The notes beneath the pieces were generated by a model that made no database searches, was not told the origin of the DNA, and saw nothing but the letters and a program-made list of their open reading frames with translations. Positions 14,689 to 33,303 of a stretch of DNA of 52,880 bases are shown here, piece by piece (position 1 is the stretch's first letter; each line of letters opens with the position of its first letter). The translations under genes and the position numbers were made by a program. The stretch is from Candidatus Pacearchaeota archaeon (GTDB taxonomy: Archaea; Nanobdellota; Nanobdellia; Pacearchaeales; GW2011-AR1): contig JAFCDB010000013.1 in NCBI GenBank assembly GCA_017609885.1, forward strand, positions 1 to 52,880, given 5' to 3'.

Positions 14689-15037
14689 AGAAAAAACAAG
14701 AATAATTGATATTTATGAAAAAGGCGGAACTTTTGCATCTGTCTTTAGAAGATTTAAAGGAGAGAAAAAAGATTACAATTATTCTGACCTTTCTTTGCTT
14801 AGACAAATCTTCAGTAATGAAAAAGCCCGGCTATTGAATGTAATAAAAATGAAAAAACCAGCATCTCTTTACAGTTTGGCGAAATTTCTTGGAAAAGATT
14901 TTAAGACAGTAAGACAAGATGTGCTTTTATTAAAAAAATTCGGATTTATAGATTTAATTCAGGAAAAACACGGAAACAGAATAACCCATAAACCAGTTTT
15001 AACAGCAACAATAGTAAACATAATTATAAGAATTTAG
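14684..15037 (+). CDS. HTH transcriptional regulator, HVO_A0114-like
   Basis: KPASLYSLAKFLGKDFKTVRQDVLLLKKFGFIDLIQE winged HTH. Confidence 0.7.
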   Translation: MAEKTRIIDIYEKGGTFASVFRRFKGEKKDYNYSDLSLLRQIFSNEKARLLNVIKMKKPASLYSLAKFLGKDFKTVRQDVLLLKKFGFIDLIQEKHGNRITHKPVLTATIVNIIIRI

Positions 15038-15537
15038 TTTTGACAAACTTCAAACCGCATGATTATCTCTTGTCTATCTGCTGCTCTAAACTCTTTTTCA
15101 TTGTAAATCCTTGCACCTGAACAATCTCCAACTCCTTCCTGAACAGGACTAATCAACTCTACATTTTCATCATAATAAATTTCTAATTTATAATATTGTG
15201 TTCTTGAGTTCTCGCCAACAACATAAGTGCTGCTTTCTAAAATCTCCTCCAAAGTTTCTTCAAGCACCTCACAAACTAATTCTCCATTAGCACACTGTTC
15301 ATTATCATAGCATTTTACAACTAAATCCCCGATTGTCTGAAATTTCGTTTCAGGAATTTCACAATCTGTAGTAAAATAACTAACTGCAGATAAAAAACTA
15401 TTCAACTCCTCATTTATTTCTATGGAATCTGTATTTGATTTTCTCAATGAAATTCCAAGGAAAATCACCGCAATTACTGCAACTATTACAACAATCAGCA
15501 CAAATCCCACAATTTCTTCCTGCGCTTTTTTCCTCAT
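15034..15537 (-). CDS. pilin-like protein 4 of cluster
   Basis: MRKKAQEEIVGFVLIVVIVAVIAVIFLG N-terminal helix. Confidence 0.6.
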   Translation of the reverse strand: MRKKAQEEIVGFVLIVVIVAVIAVIFLGISLRKSNTDSIEINEELNSFLSAVSYFTTDCEIPETKFQTIGDLVVKCYDNEQCANGELVCEVLEETLEEILESSTYVVGENSRTQYYKLEIYYDENVELISPVQEGVGDCSGARIYNEKEFRAADRQEIIMRFEVCQN

Positions 15538-16040
15538 TCTAATTCCTCCTCAACTTCAATCATCAAAAATCCAATTTCACATCTGTCATAACTTTCTCCT
15601 GAAACACTATCTTTTCTGCACAAAGCAACATAAGAACCGATCGGTGCATTGCTCTTTTTCGTAAACAATTTTATAACATTGCAATTTGGATAATTTCCTT
15701 CATTACATTCAACTTCGTTGTTCACAGGGTAAAGTTTCTTCACAATAATTCCTTTAACACCCCAAAACCCCTTATATTCTCTTGCATTTTTCAAAACCAT
15801 CAACTTATCCATATCAATTCCTCTTGGAATCCCTTCAAAATTAAATTCTGGCGTAGAAGCAATTTTTGTAACAAGTCCCACTGCCTTTTCCCTCCTAAGC
15901 TCCAAAACATCGTTCTGTAAATTAAATGTCTTGACAGAAACATAAAACAAAAAAACAAGAATGAAAAAAACTGTCACTGCAACTAGCATAAACGCCATCT
16001 GCTGGATTTTCAGTTGTCCTTTATTTAAAACAATCGACAT
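15534..16040 (-). CDS. pilin-like protein 3 of cluster
   Basis: NKGQLKIQQMAFMLVAVTVFFILVFLF; overlaps neighbours. Confidence 0.6.
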   Translation of the reverse strand: MSIVLNKGQLKIQQMAFMLVAVTVFFILVFLFYVSVKTFNLQNDVLELRREKAVGLVTKIASTPEFNFEGIPRGIDMDKLMVLKNAREYKGFWGVKGIIVKKLYPVNNEVECNEGNYPNCNVIKLFTKKSNAPIGSYVALCRKDSVSGESYDRCEIGFLMIEVEEELE

Positions 16041-16996
16041 TCTGCACCTCTATTTATTTCATTAATTTCTTCTGCTTTTATTTTGATAAGATTCAAATTT
16101 TCTAACTCATTAAAATTTTCTGCCATTTCCATCAAAGAAGAAATATCTCCTGCCAATCCTGTTCCACATCCTTTAATAGAAACAAATCTTGCTTTTTCAA
16201 GATAAATCTCACTCAAATGCTTTAATCTCATCATCAACCTTTCAACACCGCACTGGTAATTTCCCGGTGAACTGAAAATCGCAGCATACATTAAATTATC
16301 AATAAAATACAATTCCTCGTCATTTTTCAAAACAAAACCCCTTTCATAACCCTCGCAACTAATTCCTTGGCAAGCACTTTGAACAACAATATCACAATTT
16401 CCGTGAGCAAAACAAACACTTACACTATCTCTCGCACACTCAGAAACATCGTCTGTAATGTTCATATTTGAACCATCTTCATAAGATAAATCCTCGACAA
16501 AATCTGCTATATCGTCAGGAGGAGAAACAAAGCAATATTGTTTTGTGTGCATTATGACAATGTCTGCAGTTTTGTAAGGCATCTTAAATGGCATAATTAA
16601 ATAATAAAGTTTTTCCCCTTGGATTTGGTCCTCTGCAAAAATATACTGATTTTTTGAAGCAGGAATTTCCCCTCCCAAATCACTCCAGTCTTGTCCTTGA
16701 AGCTCAATTTTTTCAGAAACCTGCAATTTATTTTCTCCAAATTTTCCAGTTAATCTGCAAGAAGTGAAAATTTTTGTTTCTTTTGCAAGTTCAATATTGT
16801 TAATTTTTGCTTCTTCTGTAGCTGTTTGCAGAGGGTCGAGGAGATTTGAAAGTGCCTGCGCAGTTTTTGTATTTATTTCATAAGTTCCTGTATTTATTAA
16901 TCCAATTGCAAAAAAAATCGCAATAAACAAAATAACAGCTCCTGCAACAATTGCAAAAATCCACGCAAAACTCATCTGAAAACCTTTCTTATCCAT
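16025..16996 (-). CDS. pilin-like protein 2 of cluster
   Basis: MDKKGFQMSFAWIFAIVAGAVILFIAIFF; Cys-containing ectodomain. Confidence 0.6.
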   Translation of the reverse strand: MDKKGFQMSFAWIFAIVAGAVILFIAIFFAIGLINTGTYEINTKTAQALSNLLDPLQTATEEAKINNIELAKETKIFTSCRLTGKFGENKLQVSEKIELQGQDWSDLGGEIPASKNQYIFAEDQIQGEKLYYLIMPFKMPYKTADIVIMHTKQYCFVSPPDDIADFVEDLSYEDGSNMNITDDVSECARDSVSVCFAHGNCDIVVQSACQGISCEGYERGFVLKNDEELYFIDNLMYAAIFSSPGNYQCGVERLMMRLKHLSEIYLEKARFVSIKGCGTGLAGDISSLMEMAENFNELENLNLIKIKAEEINEINRGAECRLF

Positions 16997-16997
16997 T

Positions 16998-17492
16998 TTA
17001 TGCTCTTGAAATTGTCACAAGCTCATCTCTAATGTCTTTTTTAATTTCAATTGAAAATCCTCCCTCTTTATTTTCAATACAATAAGGATTTTCTGGGAGG
17101 TTTAAATTTATGTGTTCTATTTCTGCAGAGTCAATTTCTGCAAATCTCCGAGGGTAAAAATAAAAATTGTCCCTATAATCAACATTATTTGCTATATCTT
17201 CATATTGCTCTTTGTATTTTCCTTTTTGTTCTTGGATTGCGTTGTAAAAACAGATGTGAGTTATCTCACTTCCCCTTAGATTAAAATTAACTACTCTTTC
17301 CTCACCGCCTGATGATTTCCAAACTCTTTCTATTTCAAAATCTAAATCATTAATAAATGCGCCAGTCTCAACATTGTCTCTAATTCCAAGAAAAACATTA
17401 ATAACATAAAACGCCACCGTAATGAAAACTATAATTAAGATAATTGAAAAAATCATCCCAAATGAAAGTTGAAACTGCCCCCTTTTTTTCAT
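16998..17492 (-). CDS. pilin-like protein 1 of cluster
   Basis: MKKRGQFQLSFGMIFSIILIIVFITVAFYV. Confidence 0.6.
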   Translation of the reverse strand: MKKRGQFQLSFGMIFSIILIIVFITVAFYVINVFLGIRDNVETGAFINDLDFEIERVWKSSGGEERVVNFNLRGSEITHICFYNAIQEQKGKYKEQYEDIANNVDYRDNFYFYPRRFAEIDSAEIEHINLNLPENPYCIENKEGGFSIEIKKDIRDELVTISRA

Positions 17493-17553: not shown

Positions 17554-17608
17554 AAATGTTACGTTCAAACGTAACATTTATATAGTATATGTTACGTTAT
17601 ACTGTAAC
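17554..17608 (+). promoter_or_regulatory. two GTTAC...GTAAC palindromic sites around a TATA-like element
   Basis: AAATGTTACGTT-CA-AACGTAACATTT (12-bp perfect arms) then tttatatag then tatGTTACgttatactGTAACa next to the ATG at 17610. Confidence 0.7.
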
Positions 17609-17609
17609 A

Positions 17610-18902
17610 ATGGAAATTCAAAAACTAGCAGAATGGAATCCTTGGTGGGAGAGTAAAGAAATAATCAAAGATTTTTTAGGGAAGCCCAGGCCAGAATACA
17701 AATCACTTATAAATTCAACTGAAATAAAAGAAATTATTATAATTACTGGAATAAGGAGATCTGGAAAAAGCACTTTGATGTATCAAATGATTGAAAATCT
17801 GTTCAAAAAAGGAATATCCTCTAAACAGATTTTATTTATCAATTTAGAAGACAAAAAATTAACAAATGACTCACTAGAAGAGATTTACGAAGCTTACAAA
17901 CAAGAAATAAACCCCGATGAAAAAACATATATTTTTCTTGATGAAATTCATAAAAAACAGGGATGGGAATCGTGGATACGAAAAAAATATGATTTAAAAA
18001 CAAAAGACAAATTTATAATTTCAGGCTCTTGTTCATATTTGCTAAAAAAAGAATATTCTACTCTTCTTACTGGAAGAAACTTAACTTTTGAAATATTTCC
18101 TTTAGGTTTCAGAGAGTATCTTTTTTTTAAAAATATTGAAGTTAACAAAAACAGCATAAAAAAAGGATTAATACAAAATAAAACAAAATTTTTGATATTA
18201 AAAAATTTAAATGAATATCTGTATCTCGGAGGTTTTCCAGAAATAATAATAAAACAAAAAGAATATCAAATGAAAATATTAAAACAATATTTCGACGATA
18301 TTTTGTACAAAGACATAATAGATAGATATAATTTAAATCCTCAAAAATCAGAAGACCTTGCACTATTTTTAATAACAAACTTTACAAGTTTGATTTCACT
18401 AAGAAACACAAGAAATTCTTTAGATATGTCATACGATACAATTAAAAATTATCTGAGTTATTTTAAAGAAGCTTATTTATTTTTCATATTAAACAAATTT
18501 TCATATTCTTTTAAAGAGCAAAAATCAGTTGCTCCAAAAATTTATTGCATAGACAACGGATTGAGGAATGCTGTTTCATTTAAGTTTTCAAAAGATTATG
18601 GAAAACTTGCTGAAAATCTTGTTTTTGTTGAATTAAGAAGAAGAAATAAAAATATTTATTATTGGAAAGAAAAGTCAGAAGTAGATTTCGTAATTAAAAA
18701 CAGCGACCATACACTAAATGCAATAAAGGTTACATACAATGATGAGATTGACAAAAGAGAAATTCAGGGTTTGTTGAATTTTAAAAATAAATATAAAAAA
18801 TGCAGGGAATTAATATTAATAACAAAAAATTTAGAAAAAGAGGAAAAAATAGATAATAAAAAAATAAAATTTATTCCTTTGTGGAAATGGTTGCTTGAGT
18901 GA
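17610..18902 (+). CDS. AAA ATPase with DUF4143-type C-terminus
   Basis: P-loop GIRRSGKST, YIFLDEIH, C-terminal nuclease-like ENLVFVELRRR...EVDFVI; start at MEIQKLAEWNPWWES. Confidence 0.88.
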   Translation: MEIQKLAEWNPWWESKEIIKDFLGKPRPEYKSLINSTEIKEIIIITGIRRSGKSTLMYQMIENLFKKGISSKQILFINLEDKKLTNDSLEEIYEAYKQEINPDEKTYIFLDEIHKKQGWESWIRKKYDLKTKDKFIISGSCSYLLKKEYSTLLTGRNLTFEIFPLGFREYLFFKNIEVNKNSIKKGLIQNKTKFLILKNLNEYLYLGGFPEIIIKQKEYQMKILKQYFDDILYKDIIDRYNLNPQKSEDLALFLITNFTSLISLRNTRNSLDMSYDTIKNYLSYFKEAYLFFILNKFSYSFKEQKSVAPKIYCIDNGLRNAVSFKFSKDYGKLAENLVFVELRRRNKNIYYWKEKSEVDFVIKNSDHTLNAIKVTYNDEIDKREIQGLLNFKNKYKKCRELILITKNLEKEEKIDNKKIKFIPLWKWLLE

Positions 18903-19423: not shown

Positions 19424-19524
19424 GGCGGTTGTAGCTTAGTGGTTAAAGCGCACGGTTGTGGTGAGTTGTTATTAAACAAACTCGCAAATTCCGTGAGACG
19501 GGCGTTCGACTCTCCCCTTCCGCT
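19424..19524 (+). tRNA. tRNA-His (GTG) with 28-nt intron at 37/38 (19462-19489)
   Basis: D-arm GCTT-AGTGGTTA-AAGC; anticodon stem CACGG/CCGTG; exact bulge-helix-bulge; encoded G-1; mismatches 5-68, 6-67 and 52-62. Confidence 0.85.
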
Positions 19525-20978: not shown

Positions 20979-22247
20979 CTATTTCACTCCCTCTAACATC
21001 CACTTCCAGATAGGTTTAACATTTATCTTTTTGTTGTTGGATACAATTTCTTTTTCCTGATCAAGTGTCAGGATTAATCCTTTCCTTAATTTAAACTTGT
21101 CCATTGCTTTTAGTAATCCCCTAATCTCTCGTTCTTCATTTTTCTCAGTTAATGTTTTTGTTACTTGTATCGCATTAACTATTTTATTCCTATCTTGAAT
21201 AATAAAATCACATTCTATTTTTGTTTCGTTTTCACGAAAGTAATATATGTCCAACATATCTTGTGCTCTTCTTTTTAGTTCTATTAACACAATGGTTTCA
21301 AGCAACCACCCTAAATTTTCTGAAAAAGCAAAAGAATTTGCAGAAAAAAAGCCAATATCATTAACATACGCTTTTTTAGGATTAACTTGTTGTTCTTTTA
21401 GTGAATAGCTATATTTTGGGACAAATATAATGAGTCCGATATCTTCAATATATGATAGATAATCAGATAATGCGTCTTTAGAAATTTTAGACATTTGTTT
21501 TACCATTCTATAATAAGAGTTTAATGAAAAATCTTTAGCAGTATTAGTTATTAAGAATTTTATTAGGTTCTTTAATAAACTTACATTGCGGAGGTTGTAT
21601 CTATCTATTAAATCTTTGTAAATTGTCAAATCTAAATAACTTTTCAATGTTTCAATTTTTAATTCTTCAAAAACTATTTCAGGAAACCCCCCATATTTTA
21701 AATACTCCCTAAATACTTTCTTTGTCCTGGAAGAACCTTGAGTAGTATACAAATCTTCTTCAATATCTTTGAAATTTAAGAATTCTTTGAATGATAAAGG
21801 ATAAATATAAAATGTCAAAGAACGACCTCTCAATTCTGTGGCAATCTCCTTGCTCATTAATTTTGCACTTGAGCCTGTTAAATAAATATTCGTTGTAATT
21901 GTATCATAAATTCTTCTAACAAATTTTTCCCAGTTTTTAATTTCTTGTATTTCATCAAAAAATATAGTTGGCTTTTTATCAGGGAATAATTCAAAATACG
22001 ATTGCAATATTAAATCTAATTCATCAGTTTTCATTGGAAGGATTCTCTCATCTTCAAAATTAATATAAAGGATTTCTTCTGAGTTCAATTCTTTCATTTT
22101 TTGAAACAACAAAAATGATTTACCGACTCTTCTCGGACCCACTAAGGTAATTATCTTATTTGTTTTAGGGAATTTGAAATCCCTATCTATAATATTTAAT
22201 CTTAATTTCTGATTTTCCAAAATTATTTTTTTTATTATTTCTTTCAT
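20979..22247 (-). CDS. AAA ATPase with DUF4143-type C-terminus
   Basis: P-loop GPRRVGKSF, PTIFFDEIQ, GSSAKLMSKEIATELRGRS. Confidence 0.88.
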   Translation of the reverse strand: MKEIIKKIILENQKLRLNIIDRDFKFPKTNKIITLVGPRRVGKSFLLFQKMKELNSEEILYINFEDERILPMKTDELDLILQSYFELFPDKKPTIFFDEIQEIKNWEKFVRRIYDTITTNIYLTGSSAKLMSKEIATELRGRSLTFYIYPLSFKEFLNFKDIEEDLYTTQGSSRTKKVFREYLKYGGFPEIVFEELKIETLKSYLDLTIYKDLIDRYNLRNVSLLKNLIKFLITNTAKDFSLNSYYRMVKQMSKISKDALSDYLSYIEDIGLIIFVPKYSYSLKEQQVNPKKAYVNDIGFFSANSFAFSENLGWLLETIVLIELKRRAQDMLDIYYFRENETKIECDFIIQDRNKIVNAIQVTKTLTEKNEEREIRGLLKAMDKFKLRKGLILTLDQEKEIVSNNKKINVKPIWKWMLEGVK

Positions 22248-22578: not shown

Positions 22579-24792
22579 TCACTCCCCAATCTCAACTGGC
22601 TTCACAATCATGCTACACTCAGTAGGCAGCGGTTGCTTCCCGCTGTCATCAACACATTTGATATAATATGCCTCATCAACTTCCCAAGGTGCAAAATGCT
22701 CTGTTAATTTGTCAGAAGATTCATGCATCATTTGTTCTACTATTGCATCTTCACCAATATTAAAGTCACATTTTGTATTATCATTTGTAGAGTAAAAACA
22801 ATCTGCGTTCTCGTTTGTAATTATTTGCAAAGAATCTACATTAAATAATACTCGAACAACTTCAGGCGCCTGCGTGTCTACAAAAACTGTGAAGGTTGTG
22901 TTTGTGCTTGCTTGGTTTCCGCCAAGGTCGACACATTTTATGTAGTAAGTGTAGGTTCCTGCTGGAAGATACTGCGATTGTTTGTGTTCAAAAGAATTTG
23001 TTTCTAGGAATTCAATAAAGTTTGAGTTGTCTAGACCATAATAACAGACAGATGTGCCTTTGTCATCTTCGCCATTCCGTGTTTCCAACTCCAAATTCAC
23101 TTCAACTGTTGTAGTCGCACCTCTTATTACTTCACCTTCTTTAGGTTTTAATGAATCATCTAAAATAGTTAATGGCTGTGTCCCTCTTAATGTCAATTTT
23201 CTTCCCTGGCTCATTTTATTCCTATCTGCTTTGTCCATCCATGGCTGGTCCTCACATCTAAAATAATAATCATTATCTTCTCTATCTACTATCCCTGTTA
23301 AAGTTCCTGAACAAGTATATAACATATTCGCATTCATCTCCCATAAATTATCTGCACACTCCATTATGTTTTCCATTGTATCAAAATTCAAATCATTGTC
23401 TCTTGTCCATCTGCAATTTGCAGGTTCGTTTGTGTAAACAACTATTGGAACTTCATCAACTTCATACTGCACTGGCGAGTTGTCTGCAATACTAAATTCT
23501 TCAATTATTGGAGCTGTTGCATCTGGGCCTTTGTCAACACAAAACTTCATAACATAAGGTTCTGCATTGTAGTAACCGTTTGGACTAACACATCTAATAT
23601 ATAACTCATATCTTCCGTCATTTTCAATTTCCAGACCACCTGTTTCTGTTTGATTTGTTGAATCAGCAAAATCATTAATTGCATCAGGACTTGGAAGGTT
23701 CATTCTCTGAGTGTGATTGTAAGCAAAAAGCGAAGACTCTCCAAAATAATATTCCATGTCGTCGTATCCTGCTGGTTCATATGCCTGAGCCCCATGCCCT
23801 ACTGTAGGAACAATATCAATTTTGCATTGTGCCGGCATATTTGTCTGAATTCCAAATTCAATTGGCGTAAATGCCTCAATACATCTTCCTGTAATTCCCT
23901 GCCTTATAATTTGCGCTCCCCGCGACAAAGGCCTCTGAGACATCGGCTTGTAATCATAACCATCTGTAAGAACATCTTCCCAAGGCCGAATCCCAGGAGA
24001 TTTCACATTTCCCTCATATAAATCCGCGCACATTTCACTTTCAGTCCCCTCATTTAAAATCCCACATCCCTGCCCTAAACTCTTGCACCTATACTCCGAG
24101 CACGCATGTAACTCATCATTGCACTTTTCACAATCACTTCCACCTATTGGAGCTTCCCAAGGTTGACAATCGAAAGTTATTGTTTTATATTCTACTTCTT
24201 TGTATGTTAAGGCGAAGACAACTACTCCGACAACTGCTCCTGTGAGGAATGCGTGGCTTCCAAAAAATCCTTTAATCGCTTCACTTCTTAAAACACCAGC
24301 AGTAAACAATCCTGAAGAAACTCCCCATTGCAAACTATTTGTCAAAGGTTCTTCTAATCCTAACCAACCACCTACAAGTCCAACTACCATATAGGCTGTT
24401 GTTGCCCAGCTTAGTCCTTGCAATATTCCGCCGCCGATTCTTTTGGGTTTTGCGAATATAGAAAATAGTCCTCTTTCCCCAGTTTCAGTAGTTGTTTCAG
24501 TTCCAAAACCAGGGTCGGGTAAATCTTTGACAGTTACAGATGGATCAACAGGGGTATTGCTAACAGTTGGATTTTTCTTTATTTCATCTTGTAAGTGTTT
24601 ATTCCATAATTGACTGGCTTCTTCATCTGTCATAGATTCAGTATTAAACTGTCCTGCAGGAGTGAAGTCCCCTACTTCAGCACTAACAACTTCAACCTCC
24701 AGTCCAATCAAAAAACTAATTGCAACAATTGACAAAATCAAATTCACAACTACAAACAAACATTCACTCTTTTTCAAGTTTTCTTTTTTCAT
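22579..24792 (-). CDS. Cys-rich surface protein, equivalent to the C-terminal half of 28395..32078
   Basis: FDCQPWEAPIGGSDCEKCNDELHACSEYRCKSLGQGCGILNEGTESEMCA aligns with FDCKTWQRPFMGNCKKCNENPMKPCSKYRCESLGMNCGMINEGTEYGVCA. Confidence 0.8.
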   Translation of the reverse strand: MKKENLKKSECLFVVVNLILSIVAISFLIGLEVEVVSAEVGDFTPAGQFNTESMTDEEASQLWNKHLQDEIKKNPTVSNTPVDPSVTVKDLPDPGFGTETTTETGERGLFSIFAKPKRIGGGILQGLSWATTAYMVVGLVGGWLGLEEPLTNSLQWGVSSGLFTAGVLRSEAIKGFFGSHAFLTGAVVGVVVFALTYKEVEYKTITFDCQPWEAPIGGSDCEKCNDELHACSEYRCKSLGQGCGILNEGTESEMCADLYEGNVKSPGIRPWEDVLTDGYDYKPMSQRPLSRGAQIIRQGITGRCIEAFTPIEFGIQTNMPAQCKIDIVPTVGHGAQAYEPAGYDDMEYYFGESSLFAYNHTQRMNLPSPDAINDFADSTNQTETGGLEIENDGRYELYIRCVSPNGYYNAEPYVMKFCVDKGPDATAPIIEEFSIADNSPVQYEVDEVPIVVYTNEPANCRWTRDNDLNFDTMENIMECADNLWEMNANMLYTCSGTLTGIVDREDNDYYFRCEDQPWMDKADRNKMSQGRKLTLRGTQPLTILDDSLKPKEGEVIRGATTTVEVNLELETRNGEDDKGTSVCYYGLDNSNFIEFLETNSFEHKQSQYLPAGTYTYYIKCVDLGGNQASTNTTFTVFVDTQAPEVVRVLFNVDSLQIITNENADCFYSTNDNTKCDFNIGEDAIVEQMMHESSDKLTEHFAPWEVDEAYYIKCVDDSGKQPLPTECSMIVKPVEIGE

Positions 24793-25227
24793 TTAATCAT
24801 CTTCTCCTGTTCTATTTTTTTGAACAAATGTTCTAATTTCTTGAACAAACTTCTCTGCTTTCTTAATCACTTCTTTAACATCACACTTCTCAATAATATT
24901 TACTTCTCTATAAACTACTATATTTCTCTTTTTTCTTACTTTATCAAAAAAATTAATCAATTCTTTATTAAGTTTTGTTTCTCGCAAAAACTCAAAAACT
25001 GATTTGTGTTGTTCGCTCCCTACTGGCTTAAATCCTAAACTAAACATCAATGTTCTTGCACTTTGCAACACAGCATTATATGCAATAGAATATGTCCAAT
25101 CATAATCTCCCTCTTCTAAAATATTTTTTGCAGTCCTTAAATCTCTCTCTGCCAAACTAAAGTCAGGTTCTTGTTTTATCAAGAGCTTTTTTATTTTCCT
25201 ATCCCTTAACAATTTTCCGAAGTTCAT
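24793..25227 (-). CDS. HEPN-domain protein
   Basis: All-helical; AYNAVLQSARTLMFSLGFKP...VRKKRNIVVYREVNI; adjacent to MNT partner. Confidence 0.75.
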   Translation of the reverse strand: MNFGKLLRDRKIKKLLIKQEPDFSLAERDLRTAKNILEEGDYDWTYSIAYNAVLQSARTLMFSLGFKPVGSEQHKSVFEFLRETKLNKELINFFDKVRKKRNIVVYREVNIIEKCDVKEVIKKAEKFVQEIRTFVQKNRTGEDD

Positions 25228-25765
25228 CTTCCTCTCCCTTTATCATGATTACTTTTCCAGCAAAAATTTCATTCATCAACCTATTATCTTTCTTTTTTTG
25301 GATACTTTTAATTGACCAAACAACTGGATTAATTTCTCTTCCTGTTTCTTCTTCTAATGGTTTGAATAACTTAAAAGTTTCAGACAACTTTACATTTCCA
25401 ATAATTAAAACATCAATATCACTTTCTGTATGGTAATCTCCCCGGGAAAAACTCCCAAAAACCAGCGCAAATTCTATTTTTTTATTTTTCTTCAGTAAAT
25501 CTTCTAGAGAGTAAACAATATAATCTGTTTTAACAAAAATACTTTTTAACTCATCAACAATGTTGTTCTTTCTATTTAATTTTATTTTATTTCCCTCTTT
25601 TTCTATCACACCAACACTCTCAAGATTATCAATCTCTCTCTTCACAGCACTTGAAGAAATTTTTAATTGATTAGAAATTTCTCTAATATGAGTTTCCTTG
25701 CTTTCAAAAAATAAATATTTCATTATTTTTATTCTGTTTTTTGATGTAAATATTTTTTCTAACAT
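25199..25765 (-). CDS. winged-HTH + MNT nucleotidyltransferase domain protein (antitoxin-like)
   Basis: HTH HIREISNQLKISSSAVKREIDNLESVGVI; NTase motif GSFSRGDYHTESDIDVLII. Confidence 0.85.
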   Translation of the reverse strand: MLEKIFTSKNRIKIMKYLFFESKETHIREISNQLKISSSAVKREIDNLESVGVIEKEGNKIKLNRKNNIVDELKSIFVKTDYIVYSLEDLLKKNKKIEFALVFGSFSRGDYHTESDIDVLIIGNVKLSETFKLFKPLEEETGREINPVVWSIKSIQKKKDNRLMNEIFAGKVIMIKGEEDELRKIVKG

Positions 25766-25766
25766 T

Positions 25767-27572
25767 TTAACTCCCCTTAGCAAAGTTGTAAGCTTTGATT
25801 ATCATTCCTTGAACAACATTTCCTGCAGGCTGCGAACCTCTGAAAGTTTCCTCTCCAGTTTGCTGCGCCCCCCCAAATTCCTGGCTTTGTGATTGCGGTG
25901 CTTCTTCTCTTTCATCGCCAACTTGAGTTTCTTTTCCCCCTTTAATTTTTATTTCATAACCCTCATTTACAAATTTTCCGACATAATTTGCCCCTGGACC
26001 GCAGTCTCCCAAAGACGAACAATAAAACATTGCAGCTAATGCAGTTTTCTTTGATTCAGGATTATCCGGGTCGCAGAAGCAGTTTTCTACGCATTTTTTT
26101 TCTCCTCCAATTGCTCGCTTTTCATATTTTACAATACATGTCTGCGTTCCTGCCATGCAAACATCCTGCGCATTTTCACTCCAGAAATCCAAACCCGGTG
26201 CAACTTTCGGAACACACTTTCCATAAGATTCCTGGTCTTCAATCTGCACATTAAACAACTCTGCTTTTACAGTGTCAATATCCAGCATATTTCTAATTGC
26301 ATTGTCAACTCTTCCTTTTTCATCAATCGGCAACCAGATGCAATCTCTTTGATAGCGGTTCAAACAATCTCTTGTCTTATTCTGCAAAATACAATCCTGC
26401 CACCGATTCACAATACATCCTGCCTGAGAAAAATCCTCTCCCTCTGTTTCAATTGCATCTTCAACACAAACCTCGTTCCTAAAATCCCCGCATGGTTCAA
26501 CAATTTCCTCACCCATATAACAAATATGTCTGTAATGCCTTGAACCAACAGAATCTGCATTTTGATTTCCATTGTCATAGTAGCACCACGACTCGCCGTT
26601 TTTGTAGTCCTCGCCATTTGAAGTATCATAGCAATTTACATCCTGGCAAATATAATCTCCATAAGCTGGTTTTTGTCCTCGGAGAGCTTCTGCGCAAATT
26701 GTCCCCTGCCCAAGATATTCACAATTACCACAACCTCTTGGTGAACCATGACAACTTTCCTCTGGATGTTTTATCTTTGTCCAATAAGCTGCACTATTTA
26801 ATTTACTTGCGTCATAAATATTCGCCCTATTTCCGCAAGTATCAACAAAATAAACCCGGCCATTTTCACATCTTGTTTCCTGTGTTTTTGCACAATCTGT
26901 CTCCAGCTCTTCTGCGGTGCACAAATAATCTTTATAAAATCTTATTGATTCCTGATCTGAAACTTGCTCACCAAGTTCTGCAGAATCACACTCATCTCGT
27001 GTTCCAAATCTGCAGGTTTTCACAAATTCTGATTCAAATACGCATGCCCCAAAATCCTGCGAAGTTGCAAGAGCAATACATGAAAGTTCATCAGCTACAT
27101 CTGTCCTGAAATTTGTCTGCAACCCATAAATTCCAGAAAGTTTCTTGCATCTTTGCAAAGTTACATAAGCTGCTTCTGTTCCAAGTAAACAACAGCCCAT
27201 ATTACATCGAGGAATCTGGCAGTTTGCGTTTTCCTCCCATGAGCCGTTTGCAGCTGAACATGCTTCTTCAGGCGTATTTTCCATGCAAATTCCTTCGTCG
27301 CTGTCATAACAACATCCCTTTTTACAATAACTTGTTGCCTCGCATGAAGTAGGGCTTACTTTAAAATTTGCATCGCAATTTTCCTCTGGCTCATTTTGGC
27401 AATAAGCTCCTGTCAGGGTTTTCTCACAGCAAAAACTCACTTCCTGCGCAGAAACAAACACTCCTAAAACTACTAAACAAATTATCACAAGCAAAATTCC
27501 TGCAGCTATTTTTTCCCTCTTTGTCATTTTTCCTCTTACACTTTCTTGGTTTTTATTTTTATATGTTCTCAT
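25767..27572 (-). CDS. Cys-rich surface protein, equivalent to the N-terminal half of 28395..32078
   Basis: GCCYDSDEGICMENTPEEACSAANGSW..., VDTCGNRANIYDASKLNS, NGESWCYYDNGNQNADSVGSRHYRHIC match the large protein; probable start at internal ATG 27527. Confidence 0.8.
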   Translation of the reverse strand: MRTYKNKNQESVRGKMTKREKIAAGILLVIICLVVLGVFVSAQEVSFCCEKTLTGAYCQNEPEENCDANFKVSPTSCEATSYCKKGCCYDSDEGICMENTPEEACSAANGSWEENANCQIPRCNMGCCLLGTEAAYVTLQRCKKLSGIYGLQTNFRTDVADELSCIALATSQDFGACVFESEFVKTCRFGTRDECDSAELGEQVSDQESIRFYKDYLCTAEELETDCAKTQETRCENGRVYFVDTCGNRANIYDASKLNSAAYWTKIKHPEESCHGSPRGCGNCEYLGQGTICAEALRGQKPAYGDYICQDVNCYDTSNGEDYKNGESWCYYDNGNQNADSVGSRHYRHICYMGEEIVEPCGDFRNEVCVEDAIETEGEDFSQAGCIVNRWQDCILQNKTRDCLNRYQRDCIWLPIDEKGRVDNAIRNMLDIDTVKAELFNVQIEDQESYGKCVPKVAPGLDFWSENAQDVCMAGTQTCIVKYEKRAIGGEKKCVENCFCDPDNPESKKTALAAMFYCSSLGDCGPGANYVGKFVNEGYEIKIKGGKETQVGDEREEAPQSQSQEFGGAQQTGEETFRGSQPAGNVVQGMIIKAYNFAKGS

Positions 27573-27573
27573 T

Positions 27574-28362
27574 TTACCTCAACCCATATCCTGGCGGAAA
27601 CACCAAACTTTTCGAAGCAAAATTAAATTCCTCTTCTATATTTCTGTCTGAAACAAAATACAAAGTCGTTCCATCTCCCTGTTTTAATTTTTGTATTCTC
27701 ATCTCAGGATACAATAGCATGTAAACATCAACATCTGTATCTCCATACCTTGCCTCATAATTTAATATTGAAGTTGACAACATTATCAATTCATACAATT
27801 TACTTTCTTTTCTAATTTCAAATCCATCAAACACCCTCCTGTCATCCTCTTTTGAAATTGTCAAACCAGTATCAATATCAACTATCAAATTTCCATAAGC
27901 TAAATCAATGGAATAATCAAATCCCCGCGACTCAACATTATATCCTCTTTTTTCTGCCTCTTCTTTTGCATCTTCAAAACAACCCTGCACATTAGGTTTT
28001 ATTTCCATTTCAATCTCACTTTCAACATGTTGAATTAAAAGAGGGTTTTGAATATAGCATGTTTCAAAGTCCACAGATGACTTGCACAAATAAGCCAACT
28101 TCACTCCTTGATACAAAAAATAATCTTTTGGTTCCATATATCCTCCCTGCCTTGCAATCTGCGAAATCTTCATGTTTATATTTTCTCCTTCAATGCAAGC
28201 TTCTAAATTATCTTTAAAATCAAATTCTCCACCTGTAAAAATATTTGGAAGATTAATAACATCTGTTGCTATTAAAATAATAAGGATAGCTACAGCTACA
28301 ATTACAACTCCGATTATTATAAAAATTGCAATCTGCCCCTTTTTATTCATTTTCTTGTTCAC
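27574..28362 (-). CDS. pilin-like KKGQIAIF membrane protein
   Basis: MNKKMNKKGQIAIFIIIGVVIVAVAILIILIA; paralogue of 32327..33136. Confidence 0.75.
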   Translation of the reverse strand: MNKKMNKKGQIAIFIIIGVVIVAVAILIILIATDVINLPNIFTGGEFDFKDNLEACIEGENINMKISQIARQGGYMEPKDYFLYQGVKLAYLCKSSVDFETCYIQNPLLIQHVESEIEMEIKPNVQGCFEDAKEEAEKRGYNVESRGFDYSIDLAYGNLIVDIDTGLTISKEDDRRVFDGFEIRKESKLYELIMLSTSILNYEARYGDTDVDVYMLLYPEMRIQKLKQGDGTTLYFVSDRNIEEEFNFASKSLVFPPGYGLR

Positions 28363-28394
28363 CTTATTAACATATCTTGATTTATAAATTTTGA

Positions 28395-31300
28395 CTATGC
28401 AATTGAATCATCTGGCTGAACAATTATCGAGCATCCAGAAAATCTGTTGCTCCAATTATCCTCACAGATAATATAATGTGTAACATCAGATTCCCAAATA
28501 GTAGTATGAATTTTCGAATTTTCTCCATTCATCAAATTCGCGTTTTGCAAATTAAAATTGCACCCCCATCTTGAATCTGTATTAAAATAACATCTTGAAT
28601 CTTCATTTGTAACAACAACTAAATTCCCAGAATCATGATAAACCCTTGTCACCTCAGGCCCAATTTCGTCTAATTCTAAACTAAATGAACTTTCTTTTTC
28701 TGCGAAATTCCCCACAGCATCATTGCATTTAACCTCAAATTCATAATCTCCTTTTGTCATGCTTGCTAAAATATGCCGATGATTATTGTCCCAAGTTTCT
28801 GAAAATCTGTCTGAAAATCCCTGCTCTTTAAATTCATATGAACAGCTCGCATTACCATTGTCAACTCCGCCAGAAGTTTCAACCCTCAACTCAACACTAA
28901 TCGGCTCTGTTCCTCGAGTAATAGTTTCATTAGGTTCAATTGAATCTATCTTCAATTCAAACTCACTCTTTTTCAAATTATATTCGTAAACTCCTCCTAA
29001 CTCTGCCCCAATATTTCTCGAACTATTTTCCCCTAACCAAGGCTGGTCCCTGCATAAAATATAATAGCTATTTTCATTTTCTTCAACAGGCAAATTTGCA
29101 GAGCATGAATAACCTAATATTGTTCCTGAATTAACATTTGTCTCACACTCCATTTCATTTTCTAAATATCTATATGCTTCTAACATGTCTCCTGTTATCG
29201 GTCTTATAACATCCCATTTGCACTCTGCAGGTTCATTTACAAAAATAATTGTCTCCTGTTCTGTTGCATTTACAGGAAGAATCGCACCATCTGCAGGCAT
29301 CGTTAGAGTTACAACAGGAGCAGTTCTGTCAGGCCCCGGAGCAACACAAAAATTAATTTGATAATCATGATCATTTTCAATACCATTTATATTCGCGCAC
29401 TTCACATAAAAATTCAACTCCCCAACTTGGTCAAGCAAATATTCATGAATTGTGTCTCCAATATGCTGCTCGATATCATCATCAAAAATCCCCATGTCCT
29501 CTGCATTTTCCTCAGTTATTTCTGCCTCCATCAATTCCTCAAATTCTTCAGGTGTGCTTACTTGAGATGCAATTAAACTCTCAGCACTTGGAAGATAAGT
29601 TGCGTAGGTGTGATTTTTTGTAAGAACATTTCTCTCAAAAAAATAACTCCAATCACTTTCTTCAAAATCTCGTTCCTGTGAAATTCTGCATTGGGCGTAG
29701 ACATCTGTTTCAACTCCAAATATTAAAGGAGTAAATGCCTGAATGCAGTTTCCGTTACTATCTCTGACTTCAAAACCATTTGTAGTTTCAGATTGATATC
29801 TAAACAAACTCCTGTTTAAAATTTCTTCCCAAGGACTTATTGTTGGAATGTTGTCCTCATTGTTGATACTTGCGCAAACTCCATATTCAGTTCCCTCATT
29901 TATCATTCCACAATTCATTCCTAAACTTTCACAGCGATATTTTGAACATGGCTTCATAGGATTTTCATTGCACTTTTTGCAGTTTCCCATAAACGGCCGC
30001 TGCCAAGTTTTGCAGTCAAAAGAGATTTCTACAATTTCTGTTTTCCCGCACCCCATTGCATACATTGCTCCCATAACAATAACTGCTCCAAGTACAGCAA
30101 AACCCAAGGGAGTTGCACCTATGAAAATTCCGCCAATAGAAAGTCCTGAATAAGTTGCTCCTGCTCCAAATAATCCTGCTCCTCCGGCAAGTATCCCTCC
30201 AACTGCCCCAACTCCTGCCCCAATTCCTGCACCAGTTAAAGTACTCCCCAACTGATCCCCAAACATATTCCCTAACTGACTCCCCTCCTCAAAATCCCCA
30301 AAACTTGCATAACCTGATAAAAAAGAATCTGCCATTCCTAAAGGTAAACTTAAAATTGACTCCACACTATCATATCCTCCTGGTTTTGCATGCTGTCCTC
30401 TAACTGCAATTGCAAGAACAGCATACAAAGGAGCAAAAAATGCAGGCGGAGGAGGACGATGCCCATGCGAACCTTTTTTTGAAACACTCGCCCCGAAAAA
30501 TGTCGGCTTTCCAACATAATTAATATAAGCTCCGCAATCTCCTAAACTCGCACACAAATTATTCATCTGCGCTGTAAATCCTGCATTCATACAATTGCAA
30601 TTTTCAACACATGTCCATCCTCCAGGACATTTTTTTACAAACATAACACTACAAGTTTTTGAAGCCAACCCACAAACATTGTTTGCGCTTGTTCCACCAC
30701 CAAACCCTCCAAGCCCTCCTGCAATATCTCCAAATTCCCCTAACACTCCTAAATCTCCCAATGCATCTCCTGCAATTCCTCCTGCAACTCCTACCAAGCC
30801 ACTTGTACTTTCTAAATCAAAACCAGGAGGATATTTTGGAACACACATATTAAATTTAAATTCACTATCAACAAAAATTGGTTGAATACTGCAATCAGGA
30901 TTTAATGCACATTTTGCCATGCATCCTGGCCCGCAATCACCTCCAGAATTCGCAGCAACACACTGCTCCCAAGTATTTACTCTACACATTGCATTATTAA
31001 TTTTCCTAATCCCTTCAACTTCTTTTTCATCCTCGACACAAATTTCCTTTCTGTAATCTGCGCAAGGTTCTACTTTCACCTCTCCATTAACACAAGCATA
31101 TCTAAAATGCCTGCTTCCAACAGGGTCAACACTCAAAGCACCTATACTTCCAATTCCTAAGTTTCCTATTTGCCCGTCGTAAACACACCATGACTCTCCA
31201 TTTATCCTGTCTTTTTTTCTTCCTGCATGTCCTGGCGCATCATCACAATTCAAATCTCTGCAAGTGAAACCTTCCATATTTCCTTTGTCTCCTGCTCCAA

Positions 31301-32078
31301 ACTCTCTGCAAATACTTCCTAACTCATAATTGCAATTTCCACAGCTTGATGAACGCGAATTTGCTGAATTAGGATTGCATGAGTCCTGCTTTGACAAAAC
31401 TTTTCCCTCATTCCACGAGTTTAATTTATTTGAAGAATAAATATTCTCTCTATTTCCGCAACTGTCAAACCAATAGATTTCTTCCTCACCTTCAATACAA
31501 CCTGCTGATTTTTGTTTTTCACAAATAGTATTTAATTCTTCATTAGAACATAAATAACCTTCATGAAAATATTGTAAATCATTTGTTATACTCAAACATT
31601 CGGTTTTTGTCGTGAACTTGCAATTGTTTGTTTCTTCATATGGAATTGGAATAACACACGCTCCTATTTCTCCTGAATCAACAACTGCCATGCACTCCAA
31701 GTCATCTTCTATTGAAGGGTCCCAGTTTCCAGGAGTTCCGAAAAGTTCTGATAATTTCTCGCATCTTCTCTGCGTGACAAATTGCGTATTTAATCCTAAT
31801 GAACAGCAGCCAATTCTGCACGCACCAACCTGACACAGCGGATCATCAAACCAACTTCCTCCTGCTACTTGACAATTTTCCTCAACAACATTTGGGTCGC
31901 AAAGCCCCTCATCCCCATCAAAACAACATCCTAATTCTTCTTCAGATGTTCCTAATGCTCCCACCATTTCAAAATCTCCAACAATAAAAGCAAATGCAAA
32001 AATCCCCAAAACCAAAATCCCAATTTCAAACAGCGACCCTATTTTCTTTTCCAAATTTTTATTTTTCATTTCTGCCAT
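28395..32078 (-). CDS. giant Cys-rich surface protein (about 1227 aa)
   Basis: Signal peptide after MAEMKNKNLEKK; many Cys; internal Gly-rich hydrophobic segments; listed start at 32153 lies inside the tRNA and is not used. Confidence 0.82.
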   Translation of the reverse strand: MAEMKNKNLEKKIGSLFEIGILVLGIFAFAFIVGDFEMVGALGTSEEELGCCFDGDEGLCDPNVVEENCQVAGGSWFDDPLCQVGACRIGCCSLGLNTQFVTQRRCEKLSELFGTPGNWDPSIEDDLECMAVVDSGEIGACVIPIPYEETNNCKFTTKTECLSITNDLQYFHEGYLCSNEELNTICEKQKSAGCIEGEEEIYWFDSCGNRENIYSSNKLNSWNEGKVLSKQDSCNPNSANSRSSSCGNCNYELGSICREFGAGDKGNMEGFTCRDLNCDDAPGHAGRKKDRINGESWCVYDGQIGNLGIGSIGALSVDPVGSRHFRYACVNGEVKVEPCADYRKEICVEDEKEVEGIRKINNAMCRVNTWEQCVAANSGGDCGPGCMAKCALNPDCSIQPIFVDSEFKFNMCVPKYPPGFDLESTSGLVGVAGGIAGDALGDLGVLGEFGDIAGGLGGFGGGTSANNVCGLASKTCSVMFVKKCPGGWTCVENCNCMNAGFTAQMNNLCASLGDCGAYINYVGKPTFFGASVSKKGSHGHRPPPPAFFAPLYAVLAIAVRGQHAKPGGYDSVESILSLPLGMADSFLSGYASFGDFEEGSQLGNMFGDQLGSTLTGAGIGAGVGAVGGILAGGAGLFGAGATYSGLSIGGIFIGATPLGFAVLGAVIVMGAMYAMGCGKTEIVEISFDCKTWQRPFMGNCKKCNENPMKPCSKYRCESLGMNCGMINEGTEYGVCASINNEDNIPTISPWEEILNRSLFRYQSETTNGFEVRDSNGNCIQAFTPLIFGVETDVYAQCRISQERDFEESDWSYFFERNVLTKNHTYATYLPSAESLIASQVSTPEEFEELMEAEITEENAEDMGIFDDDIEQHIGDTIHEYLLDQVGELNFYVKCANINGIENDHDYQINFCVAPGPDRTAPVVTLTMPADGAILPVNATEQETIIFVNEPAECKWDVIRPITGDMLEAYRYLENEMECETNVNSGTILGYSCSANLPVEENENSYYILCRDQPWLGENSSRNIGAELGGVYEYNLKKSEFELKIDSIEPNETITRGTEPISVELRVETSGGVDNGNASCSYEFKEQGFSDRFSETWDNNHRHILASMTKGDYEFEVKCNDAVGNFAEKESSFSLELDEIGPEVTRVYHDSGNLVVVTNEDSRCYFNTDSRWGCNFNLQNANLMNGENSKIHTTIWESDVTHYIICEDNWSNRFSGCSIIVQPDDSIA

Positions 32079-32105
32079 TTTATTGAAATTCGAGAGATTT
32101 GTAGG

Positions 32106-32187
32106 CGCCTCGGCCGGGACTCGAACCCGGACACCGGTGAAGGTCTCGCGCATCAGGCGAGTGCATTACCCTTAATGCTACCGAGGC
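32106..32187 (-). tRNA. type II tRNA, anticodon GAT in a 7-nt loop, G73 (Ser-like body; identity ambiguous)
   Basis: Perfect acceptor GCCTCGG/CCGAGGC, D-stem GCAT/ATGC, anticodon stem CTCGC-CTGATGC-GCGAG, 14-nt variable arm, T-stem CCGGG-TTCGAGT-CCCGG. Confidence 0.85.
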
Positions 32188-32245
32188 ACTTTCTACACCT
32201 CTAACCAAAAAATTTATATAGTTAGTGAAATTAAATATATTATAT

Positions 32246-32277
32246 CCGGTGAAGATATGCATTGCTCTTGATGCTAC
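32246..32277 (-). pseudogene. truncated tRNA copy lacking anticodon arm and 3' half
   Basis: Minus strand GTAGCATCAAGAGCAATGCA-TA-TCTTCACCGG vs tRNA GTAGCATTAAGGGTAATGCA...CCTTCACCGG. Confidence 0.65.
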
Positions 32278-32326
32278 ATTAATCGTAGCATTTTTCTTTT
32301 TTATTATTAAATTTATTTCTATCATT

Positions 32327-33136
32327 TTACCTTGGAGTATTTAACACACACCCTCTTACTGCAAATCTAATTTCCCTTCCATCTCTCAAATCTTTAATTG
32401 TATAAATTTTATTATCATTTCCGGTATTGAATTTGTCAATATCTGCCCAGGTATTTGCTCTCATTAAATTAAGATATTCTGAATTGCAGTAAATAGATTC
32501 CTGCCTCAAAATTTCCTGAATCAAAATTGCCAAATCATAAATCGAACTTTCAAATTCTGCTTCAAAAATATCAAACTCTAACCGCCTGCCAGATTTTCTG
32601 ATATGAATTTCCTTTTCCATAAAAGTCCTTACCTTCCCAGGAACAATCTCAACACTCGAGTTCAATTCAGGAGAAAAATCAACAGAATAATGCTGTTCCT
32701 CTAAAATATTTTCAAAATCATCAAAACAATCTTTAATTCTCTCATCAATAAATCCATAAATTTCATCTTCTAAATGTTTGTCAAAAAGTGGCTCAATAGT
32801 ATTACATCTTGCATAATTCCTAGGCGTAAAGCAAAGATAAGGCACATTCAAATATGTCCCCTGCAAATGATAGCCACTCGGATAGGAAAAATTCCTTGAC
32901 AACTCTGAAGCTCGAATATATCCCCCATTTTCAATAATCTTTTCAACAGCTGTTTCAACATATTCATTAACACACTGCTCAATAAATCCTTCAGGGTCTT
33001 CACCAGGATCAATTACAGGGTCTGGAACAAGAACCCGATTATACAAAAAAAACAACAAAATAACTGCAGCAACTATTAAAATTCCCACAATTACAAAAAT
33101 CGCGATTTGTCCTTTTTTATTTATTTTACCAACCAT
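32327..33136 (-). CDS. pilin-like KKGQIAIF membrane protein
   Basis: MVGKINKKGQIAIFVIVGILIVAAVILLFFLY. Confidence 0.75.
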   Translation of the reverse strand: MVGKINKKGQIAIFVIVGILIVAAVILLFFLYNRVLVPDPVIDPGEDPEGFIEQCVNEYVETAVEKIIENGGYIRASELSRNFSYPSGYHLQGTYLNVPYLCFTPRNYARCNTIEPLFDKHLEDEIYGFIDERIKDCFDDFENILEEQHYSVDFSPELNSSVEIVPGKVRTFMEKEIHIRKSGRRLEFDIFEAEFESSIYDLAILIQEILRQESIYCNSEYLNLMRANTWADIDKFNTGNDNKIYTIKDLRDGREIRFAVRGCVLNTPR

Positions 33137-33303
33137 AAATTCACCCCCAATTTTTTTATTCTTTCTGCTTTTCCCTCGACAACTAATTCTAATAGATATT
33201 TATCTGCAGTATTCCAGGAAATCCTAAAATGTTTTGCAATCTCAGAACTAGTTACAACCCTTTCTTTTTTCACAAACTCTTTTATTTTACTATGAATATC
33301 CAT
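33121..33303 (-). CDS. small winged-HTH protein
   Basis: 60 aa; VTSSEIAKHFRISWNTADKYLLELVVEGKAERI; overlaps the next gene. Confidence 0.65.
   Translation of the reverse strand: MDIHSKIKEFVKKERVVTSSEIAKHFRISWNTADKYLLELVVEGKAERIKKLGVNLWLVK

Follow-up and report, generated by a model that had tools for sequence, protein, structure and literature searches.

A HEPN-MNT cassette, probably mobile, between the halves of a split giant protein in a conserved Pacearchaeota surface operon

We analysed a stretch of 52,880 nucleotides (nt) from a Candidatus Pacearchaeota archaeon (contig JAFCDB010000013.1 of assembly GCA_017609885.1), called the window below, in which an MNT nucleotidyltransferase gene and a HEPN gene lie side by side within an operon of surface proteins. 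All genes described are on the minus strand unless stated otherwise. Module A of the operon holds pilA (32327..33136), which encodes a KKGQ pilin-like protein of 269 amino acids, and giant A (28395..32078), a fused Cys-rich and Ig-like protein of 1227 amino acids with 64 Cys. Module B starts with the paralogue pilB (27574..28362, 262 amino acids), and its giant protein is encoded by two genes, the N-half of giant B (25767..27572, 601 amino acids, 46 Cys) and the C-half (22579..24792, 737 amino acids). Between the halves are the nucleotidyltransferase gene (25199..25765), whose product carries an N-terminal winged helix-turn-helix (wHTH) domain, and the HEPN gene (24793..25227). An earlier reading of the sequence, the original prediction, had described a duplicated module with an MNT-HEPN pair exactly between the halves and a signal peptide of its own on the C-half; all coordinates were confirmed, and the C-half does start with a hydrophobic leader. 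The gene spacing was nearly right: the MNT ATG is 1 nt past the N-half stop and the MNT and HEPN genes share 29 nt, but the gap between HEPN and the C-half is 0 nt and not 1. Module A had been described as pilA followed by giant A. Both genes are present, but a tRNA-type gene (32106..32187; Rfam RF00005, 56.7 bits, no ARAGORN call) lies between them, and a gene for a 60-residue wHTH protein (33121..33303; weak Pfam HTH matches), probably the operon regulator, overlaps pilA by 16 nt. The same overlap is seen in many relatives.

The MNT protein matches Pfam Polbeta/NTP_transf_2 families (PF01909/PF18765) and has kept the GSX10DXD motif (GSFSRGDYHTESDID at residue 104). Its partner matches the HEPN family PF05168 (E=8e-15). 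The proposed toxin-antitoxin (TA) type of pair does lie inside a surface-protein operon. The best PADLOC matches are PDC-M05A for MNT (3.5e-37) and PDC-M05B for HEPN (7.8e-21), and both models are also matched by the pairs between the halves in loci L055 and L062. PDC-M05 has been listed as an archaea-enriched phage-defence candidate (PMC12988326). The RX4-6H motif was looked for in the window HEPN sequence and is absent; instead there is RN-x3-Y (RNIVVY) at position 101 and, upstream of it, His74, which is aligned and conserved across all seven pairs compared. Because the RX4HXY motif is missing, the window HEPN is not a Class I HepT. By its sequence it fits the Class II description, in which a PF05168 HEPN lacks RX4H but has a conserved Tyr and the pairs are regarded as likely TA modules (PMC7641770), as well as the alternative active site of AF0298 type that has been proposed (PMC3710099). 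Most likely the cassette works as a TA or abortive-infection unit and owes its expression to the operon. The loss of RX4-6H would also suit a domesticated, non-toxic nucleotidyltransferase, with HEPN serving as substrate-binding partner and MNT modifying another protein, and HEPN domains fused to nucleotidyltransferases are typically without the motif and probably inactive (PMC3710099). We consider such domestication quite unlikely, as the conserved His74 agrees with the AF0298-type site, Class II pairs are still held to be likely TA modules, and the distribution of the pair is sporadic.

The halves of giant B are homologous to the 1227-residue protein, as had been claimed: the N-half aligns with residues 1-536 of giant A (199/609 identical, E=3e-78) and the C-half with residues 644-1222 (188/618 identical, E=7e-74). 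pilA and pilB products are likewise paralogous, with 30% identity over 268 amino acids (E=1e-31). The position of the pair exactly between the halves would be expected if the insertion of MNT-HEPN had split a giant gene. This part of the original prediction fails, and we regard the idea as extremely improbable. Almost the whole family has the split, in most cases with no MNT/HEPN between the halves. The idea is refuted by relatives in which the halves are separate genes but nothing is inserted, and both the N-half tail and the C-half leader have homologues in same-genus genomes that lack the pair. In the N-domain tree the A and B copies separate, A being nearly always fused and B nearly always split. 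The outgroups L084 and L086, from another family of the same order, have a single fused B-like copy each. Some B copies within the family are fused as well (L047, L071, L052, L226), and the six fused B rows correspond to five changes on the 97-row tree. A single old split followed by several re-fusions is compatible with this tree, and parallel splits are possible too; with either history, the split of the B copy predates the MNT-HEPN insert. The halves are also found apart: in genome G008 the C-half (C1:13854-14843) is far from the N-half (near C1:225000-232000), and L193, L195, L204 and L231 are among the loci in which 3-5 kb of genes, some inverted, separate N from C.

Close relatives of the window MNT (over 170 bits) are present in only 4 of 112 family genomes, namely the window genome, G021, G029 and G052. 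In the first three they are located at the junction between the N- and C-halves (N–C; the other junctions are named likewise by their flanking genes), while the G052 copy has an in-frame stop and is on a different contig from its operon. The window pair is absent from the same-genus operons of G001, G002, G003 and G005, in which the junction is sequenced. There the N–C junction is 116 nt long in G001, contains one small secreted-type protein in G002 and three in G003, and in G005 the halves overlap; G005 has another, different pair at A–pilB. GC content is 27.7% for the insert and 40% and 39% for the flanking halves. Since the window N-half tail and C-half start are closest to those of genus-mates, the pair must have come without flanking sequence. 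Its arrival was recent and exactly between the stop and start of a pre-existing N–C junction, as its absence from the sampled same-genus operons, its low GC and its genus-like flanks indicate. Transfer of the pair between the three genera together with its N and C flanks, by homologous recombination, was considered and ruled out, because tail and leader group with genus-mates.

The junctions of the operon were surveyed in 98 loci, with open reading frames called mechanically. Cargo was found in 34/66 N–C junctions (MNT/HEPN in 8), 29/96 pilB–N junctions (MNT/HEPN in 11), 13/75 A–pilB junctions (MNT/HEPN in 2) and 1/38 pilA–A junctions (MNT/HEPN in none). On the tree, the presence of MNT/HEPN at eight N–C junctions requires eight changes, and therefore these cases do not descend from one inherited insertion. 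The cassettes belong to several subfamilies (wHTH-MNT/HEPN, minimal MNT/HepT with RX4H, HEPN-first pairs), and the MNT/HEPN genes embedded in junctions are in every case co-directional with the operon. A ParE-type toxin pair is at N–C in L213, and a probable one in L239. In 20 N–C junctions there are small secreted proteins bearing a lipobox-like motif, as defined by a regular expression and not by a trained predictor. No other cargo is as common between the two giant B halves as these variable proteins (for example in L040, L041, L054, L075 and L083; also in L178, L232, L235, L243 and others), and several of them have a VNVNN-type motif in common. The presence of MNT/HEPN in operon gaps is recurrent, mostly independent and enriched over background. 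Genome-wide, 13 of 146 Pfam HEPN matches, as tallied by hand, are inside the operon against 2.0 expected by length (P=1.8e-7). Within the same loci MNT/HEPN occupies 22/316 operon junctions and 8/503 neighbouring ones (odds ratio 4.6, P=1.6e-4); in both statistics the related genomes are not independent of each other, and several of the outside cases come directly after the C-half. Because many relatives hold unrelated cassettes in the same few gaps, the operon is better described as a landing hotspot than as a purpose-built circuit.

For each MNT-HEPN pair of the retrieved loci the two flanks were compared with each other, with shifted windows as control. Imperfect direct repeats of 29-75 nt flank 18/80 pairs and 0/111 control windows; the 18 cases amount to about 14 distinct ones, since L107/L242 and L035/L202 are on the same contig each and L069 is a tandem paralogue. 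Several of the repeats consist of the ends of operon genes, such as the 3' end of the N-half in L196, the end of pilB in L173 and the start of the C-half in L063, and in L242 the leader that precedes the C-half is repeated around two cassettes. Repeat-flanked pairs were noted in L196, L173, L063/L202, L242, L164, L159, L140 and others. Elsewhere in the phylum repeats were found at 1/26 pairs and at 2/28 VapBC-like units; a VapBC-like unit in L283 is surrounded by a 59-nt repeat. It is likely that the direct repeats are insertion scars, possibly target duplications made by bare TA cassettes. Duplicative insertion that spares tightly packed neighbour genes, by a putative enzyme, is plausible. 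For the window such a scar was rejected, a 28-nt repeat of 75% being treated as chance. It is possible, though still doubtful, that the operon is a dedicated defence or TA hotspot in which assorted two-gene cassettes insert again and again with target duplications of about 30-75 nt and leave their neighbours intact; embedding would then tie cassette expression to a surface structure that faces viruses or hosts, and interference with the operon would trigger HEPN.

Taken together, our preferred explanation, to which we give a probability of about 0.7, is that a mobile Class II HEPN-MNT cassette resembling PDC-M05 landed in a pre-existing junction of a conserved type-IV-pilus-like operon whose junctions are recurrent landing sites. 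The cassette would share a transcript with the pilus genes and be coupled to them in translation. MNT may nucleotidylate HEPN and thereby silence it, and loss or disturbance, for example by a virus, would unleash HEPN. Embedding in a conserved operon could guard the cassette from loss and supply it with a promoter, and the cassette would have no specific role in pilus assembly. Several points weigh against this explanation. No repeat above the shuffled control flanks the window pair, the toxin role of the window Class II HEPN is putative, and the pilin identity of the KKGQ proteins is predicted from N-terminal motifs, without a fold match. Moreover, MNT-HEPN does recur between the halves in relatives, in support of the original prediction: the same MNT subfamily (50-58% identity) is present in three genera, at the same junction and with about 1 nt between it and the N-half stop. 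This could point to a partnership that is preferred or even functional. Together with the tight 1-nt and overlapping spacing, the enrichment of HEPN in the operon and the constant co-directionality, this recurrence would suit a dedicated circuit with wHTH-MNT as sensor or repressor of the operon and HEPN as a brake on growth when assembly or expression is disturbed, for instance by a virus that uses the pilus. We find a circuit of this kind unlikely. MNT/HEPN cassettes are missing from most relatives and from 58/66 N–C junctions, and the window pair is missing from the sampled same-genus operons; the cassettes belong to several subfamilies and sit in differing junctions; these gaps also house unrelated MNT-HEPN types, lipoprotein-like genes and a ParE-toxin pair; and a conserved small wHTH gene already belongs to the operon. 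The link from assembly to growth or to addiction that the original prediction suggested is hypothetical.

Landing in this operon puts the cassette next to what is apparently an undescribed surface apparatus conserved in Pacearchaeota, with a duplicated giant Cys-rich protein of which one copy is split. Whole-genome search found giant A in 70/92 relatives: in almost every genome sampled from the Pacearchaeota family to which the window organism belongs, in most of the order, and in a single genome from a different family of the class. Named N-half homologues mostly carry the label Candidatus Pacearchaeota; the rest are assigned to Nanoarchaeota or to unnamed archaea, apart from two records with other labels. 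The gene order PCNA, small wHTH, pilA, giant A, pilB, N, C, small pilin-like genes is common to dozens of genera. The open-access literature on TA systems or pili of Pacearchaeota contained no description of the operon that we could find, and such absence is no proof of novelty. In relatives, small genes of about 163, 306, 175 and 165 codons are directly 3' of the C-half. We equate them, by size and order and not by homology search, with four small pilin-like genes of the window (15034..17492; 164, 323, 168 and 167 amino acids, each with an N-terminal transmembrane segment), which lie apart from the C-half, with other genes filling the roughly 5 kb between. Their starts (MKKRGQFQLSF, MDKKGFQMSF, LNKGQLKIQQM and MRKKAQEEIVG) are prepilin-like. 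Two AAA_14/DUF4143 ATPase genes, one at 17589-18902 on the plus strand and an AT-rich, accessory one downstream of the C-half at 20979..22247 on the minus strand, border the intervening stretch and may be extra accessory cargo. A 100-nt tRNA-type Rfam match at 19425-19524 on the plus strand, without an ARAGORN call, probably contains an intron. Note that a tRNA-Asp is in the pilB–N gap of the same-genus genomes G001, G002 and G004; the tRNA-type gene of the window operon is instead between pilA and giant A.

The operon probably builds a type-IV-pilus-like tip, adhesin or surface complex. We draw this analogy because of the prepilin-like starts, the pilB model, the giant disulfide-rich proteins and the pilus machinery genes elsewhere. 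Gln10 is invariant in 33 pilA/pilB proteins, which have a prepilin-like N-terminus (basic, G-Q, hydrophobic helix). Glu at position +5 of the mature pilin is absent from the pilA/pilB alignment, where this position is mostly F; the +5 Glu of pilins is not universal in archaea. The AF2 model of pilB (pLDDT 90.6) has an N-terminal helix (7-32) and an alpha/beta head, and structure search with it gave no PDB match with E < 0.001. The N-half model is weak (pLDDT 71) and its structure search was without a match. Sequence comparison of the giant halves and the pilins with PDB gave nothing credible, and no Pfam, NCBIfam or PDB match to PilY1 was found for the surface proteins. Outside the operon, the genome of the window (G000) encodes a type IV pilus ATPase (PF00437), a TadC-like protein (PF00482) and a prepilin peptidase (PF01478).

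The operon offers a natural experiment on the spread of TA cassettes in tiny archaeal genomes, as one conserved operon can be followed through dozens of relatives, some of which have inserts and some not. The direct-repeat scars at some pairs may reveal how bare two-gene TA modules insert. The apparatus itself, with its giant protein duplicated, one copy split and occasionally re-fused, is a candidate for contact between DPANN archaea and their hosts.

By analogy, the operon is comparable to the bacterial type IV pilus operons for minor pilins and the PilY1 tip complex, which likewise combine several pilin-like genes with a giant Cys-rich secreted protein in a genome that has ATPase, TadC-like and prepilin peptidase genes. 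It differs from them in having no PilY1 sequence homology, no +5 Glu and no pilin-fold match, and in that the giant protein is duplicated, with one copy split. The cassette resembles Class II HEPN-MNT (PF05168/PF01909; PMC7641770) in its two overlapping genes with MNT first, in GSX10DXD, in a PF05168 HEPN with a conserved Tyr and no RX4H, and in its sporadic, mobile distribution; the N-terminal winged helix on MNT and the location inside a surface-protein operon are different. With PADLOC PDC-M05, a candidate antiviral system, it shares the two-gene architecture and matches to both components, but the context is a surface operon and not a defence locus. Mobile HEPN-MNT cassettes in operons are already known: in Thermus thermophilus an MNT-HEPN pair is inserted in the lysine operon of strain HB8 but not of HB27 (PMC2701414). 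We did not find a recurrent in-operon hotspot with scar-like repeats in the literature searched. Both the T. thermophilus cassette and ours are embedded in an unrelated operon, but the former is a single report from a metabolic operon of one strain, whereas here a surface operon is a recurrent hotspot with mixed cargo.

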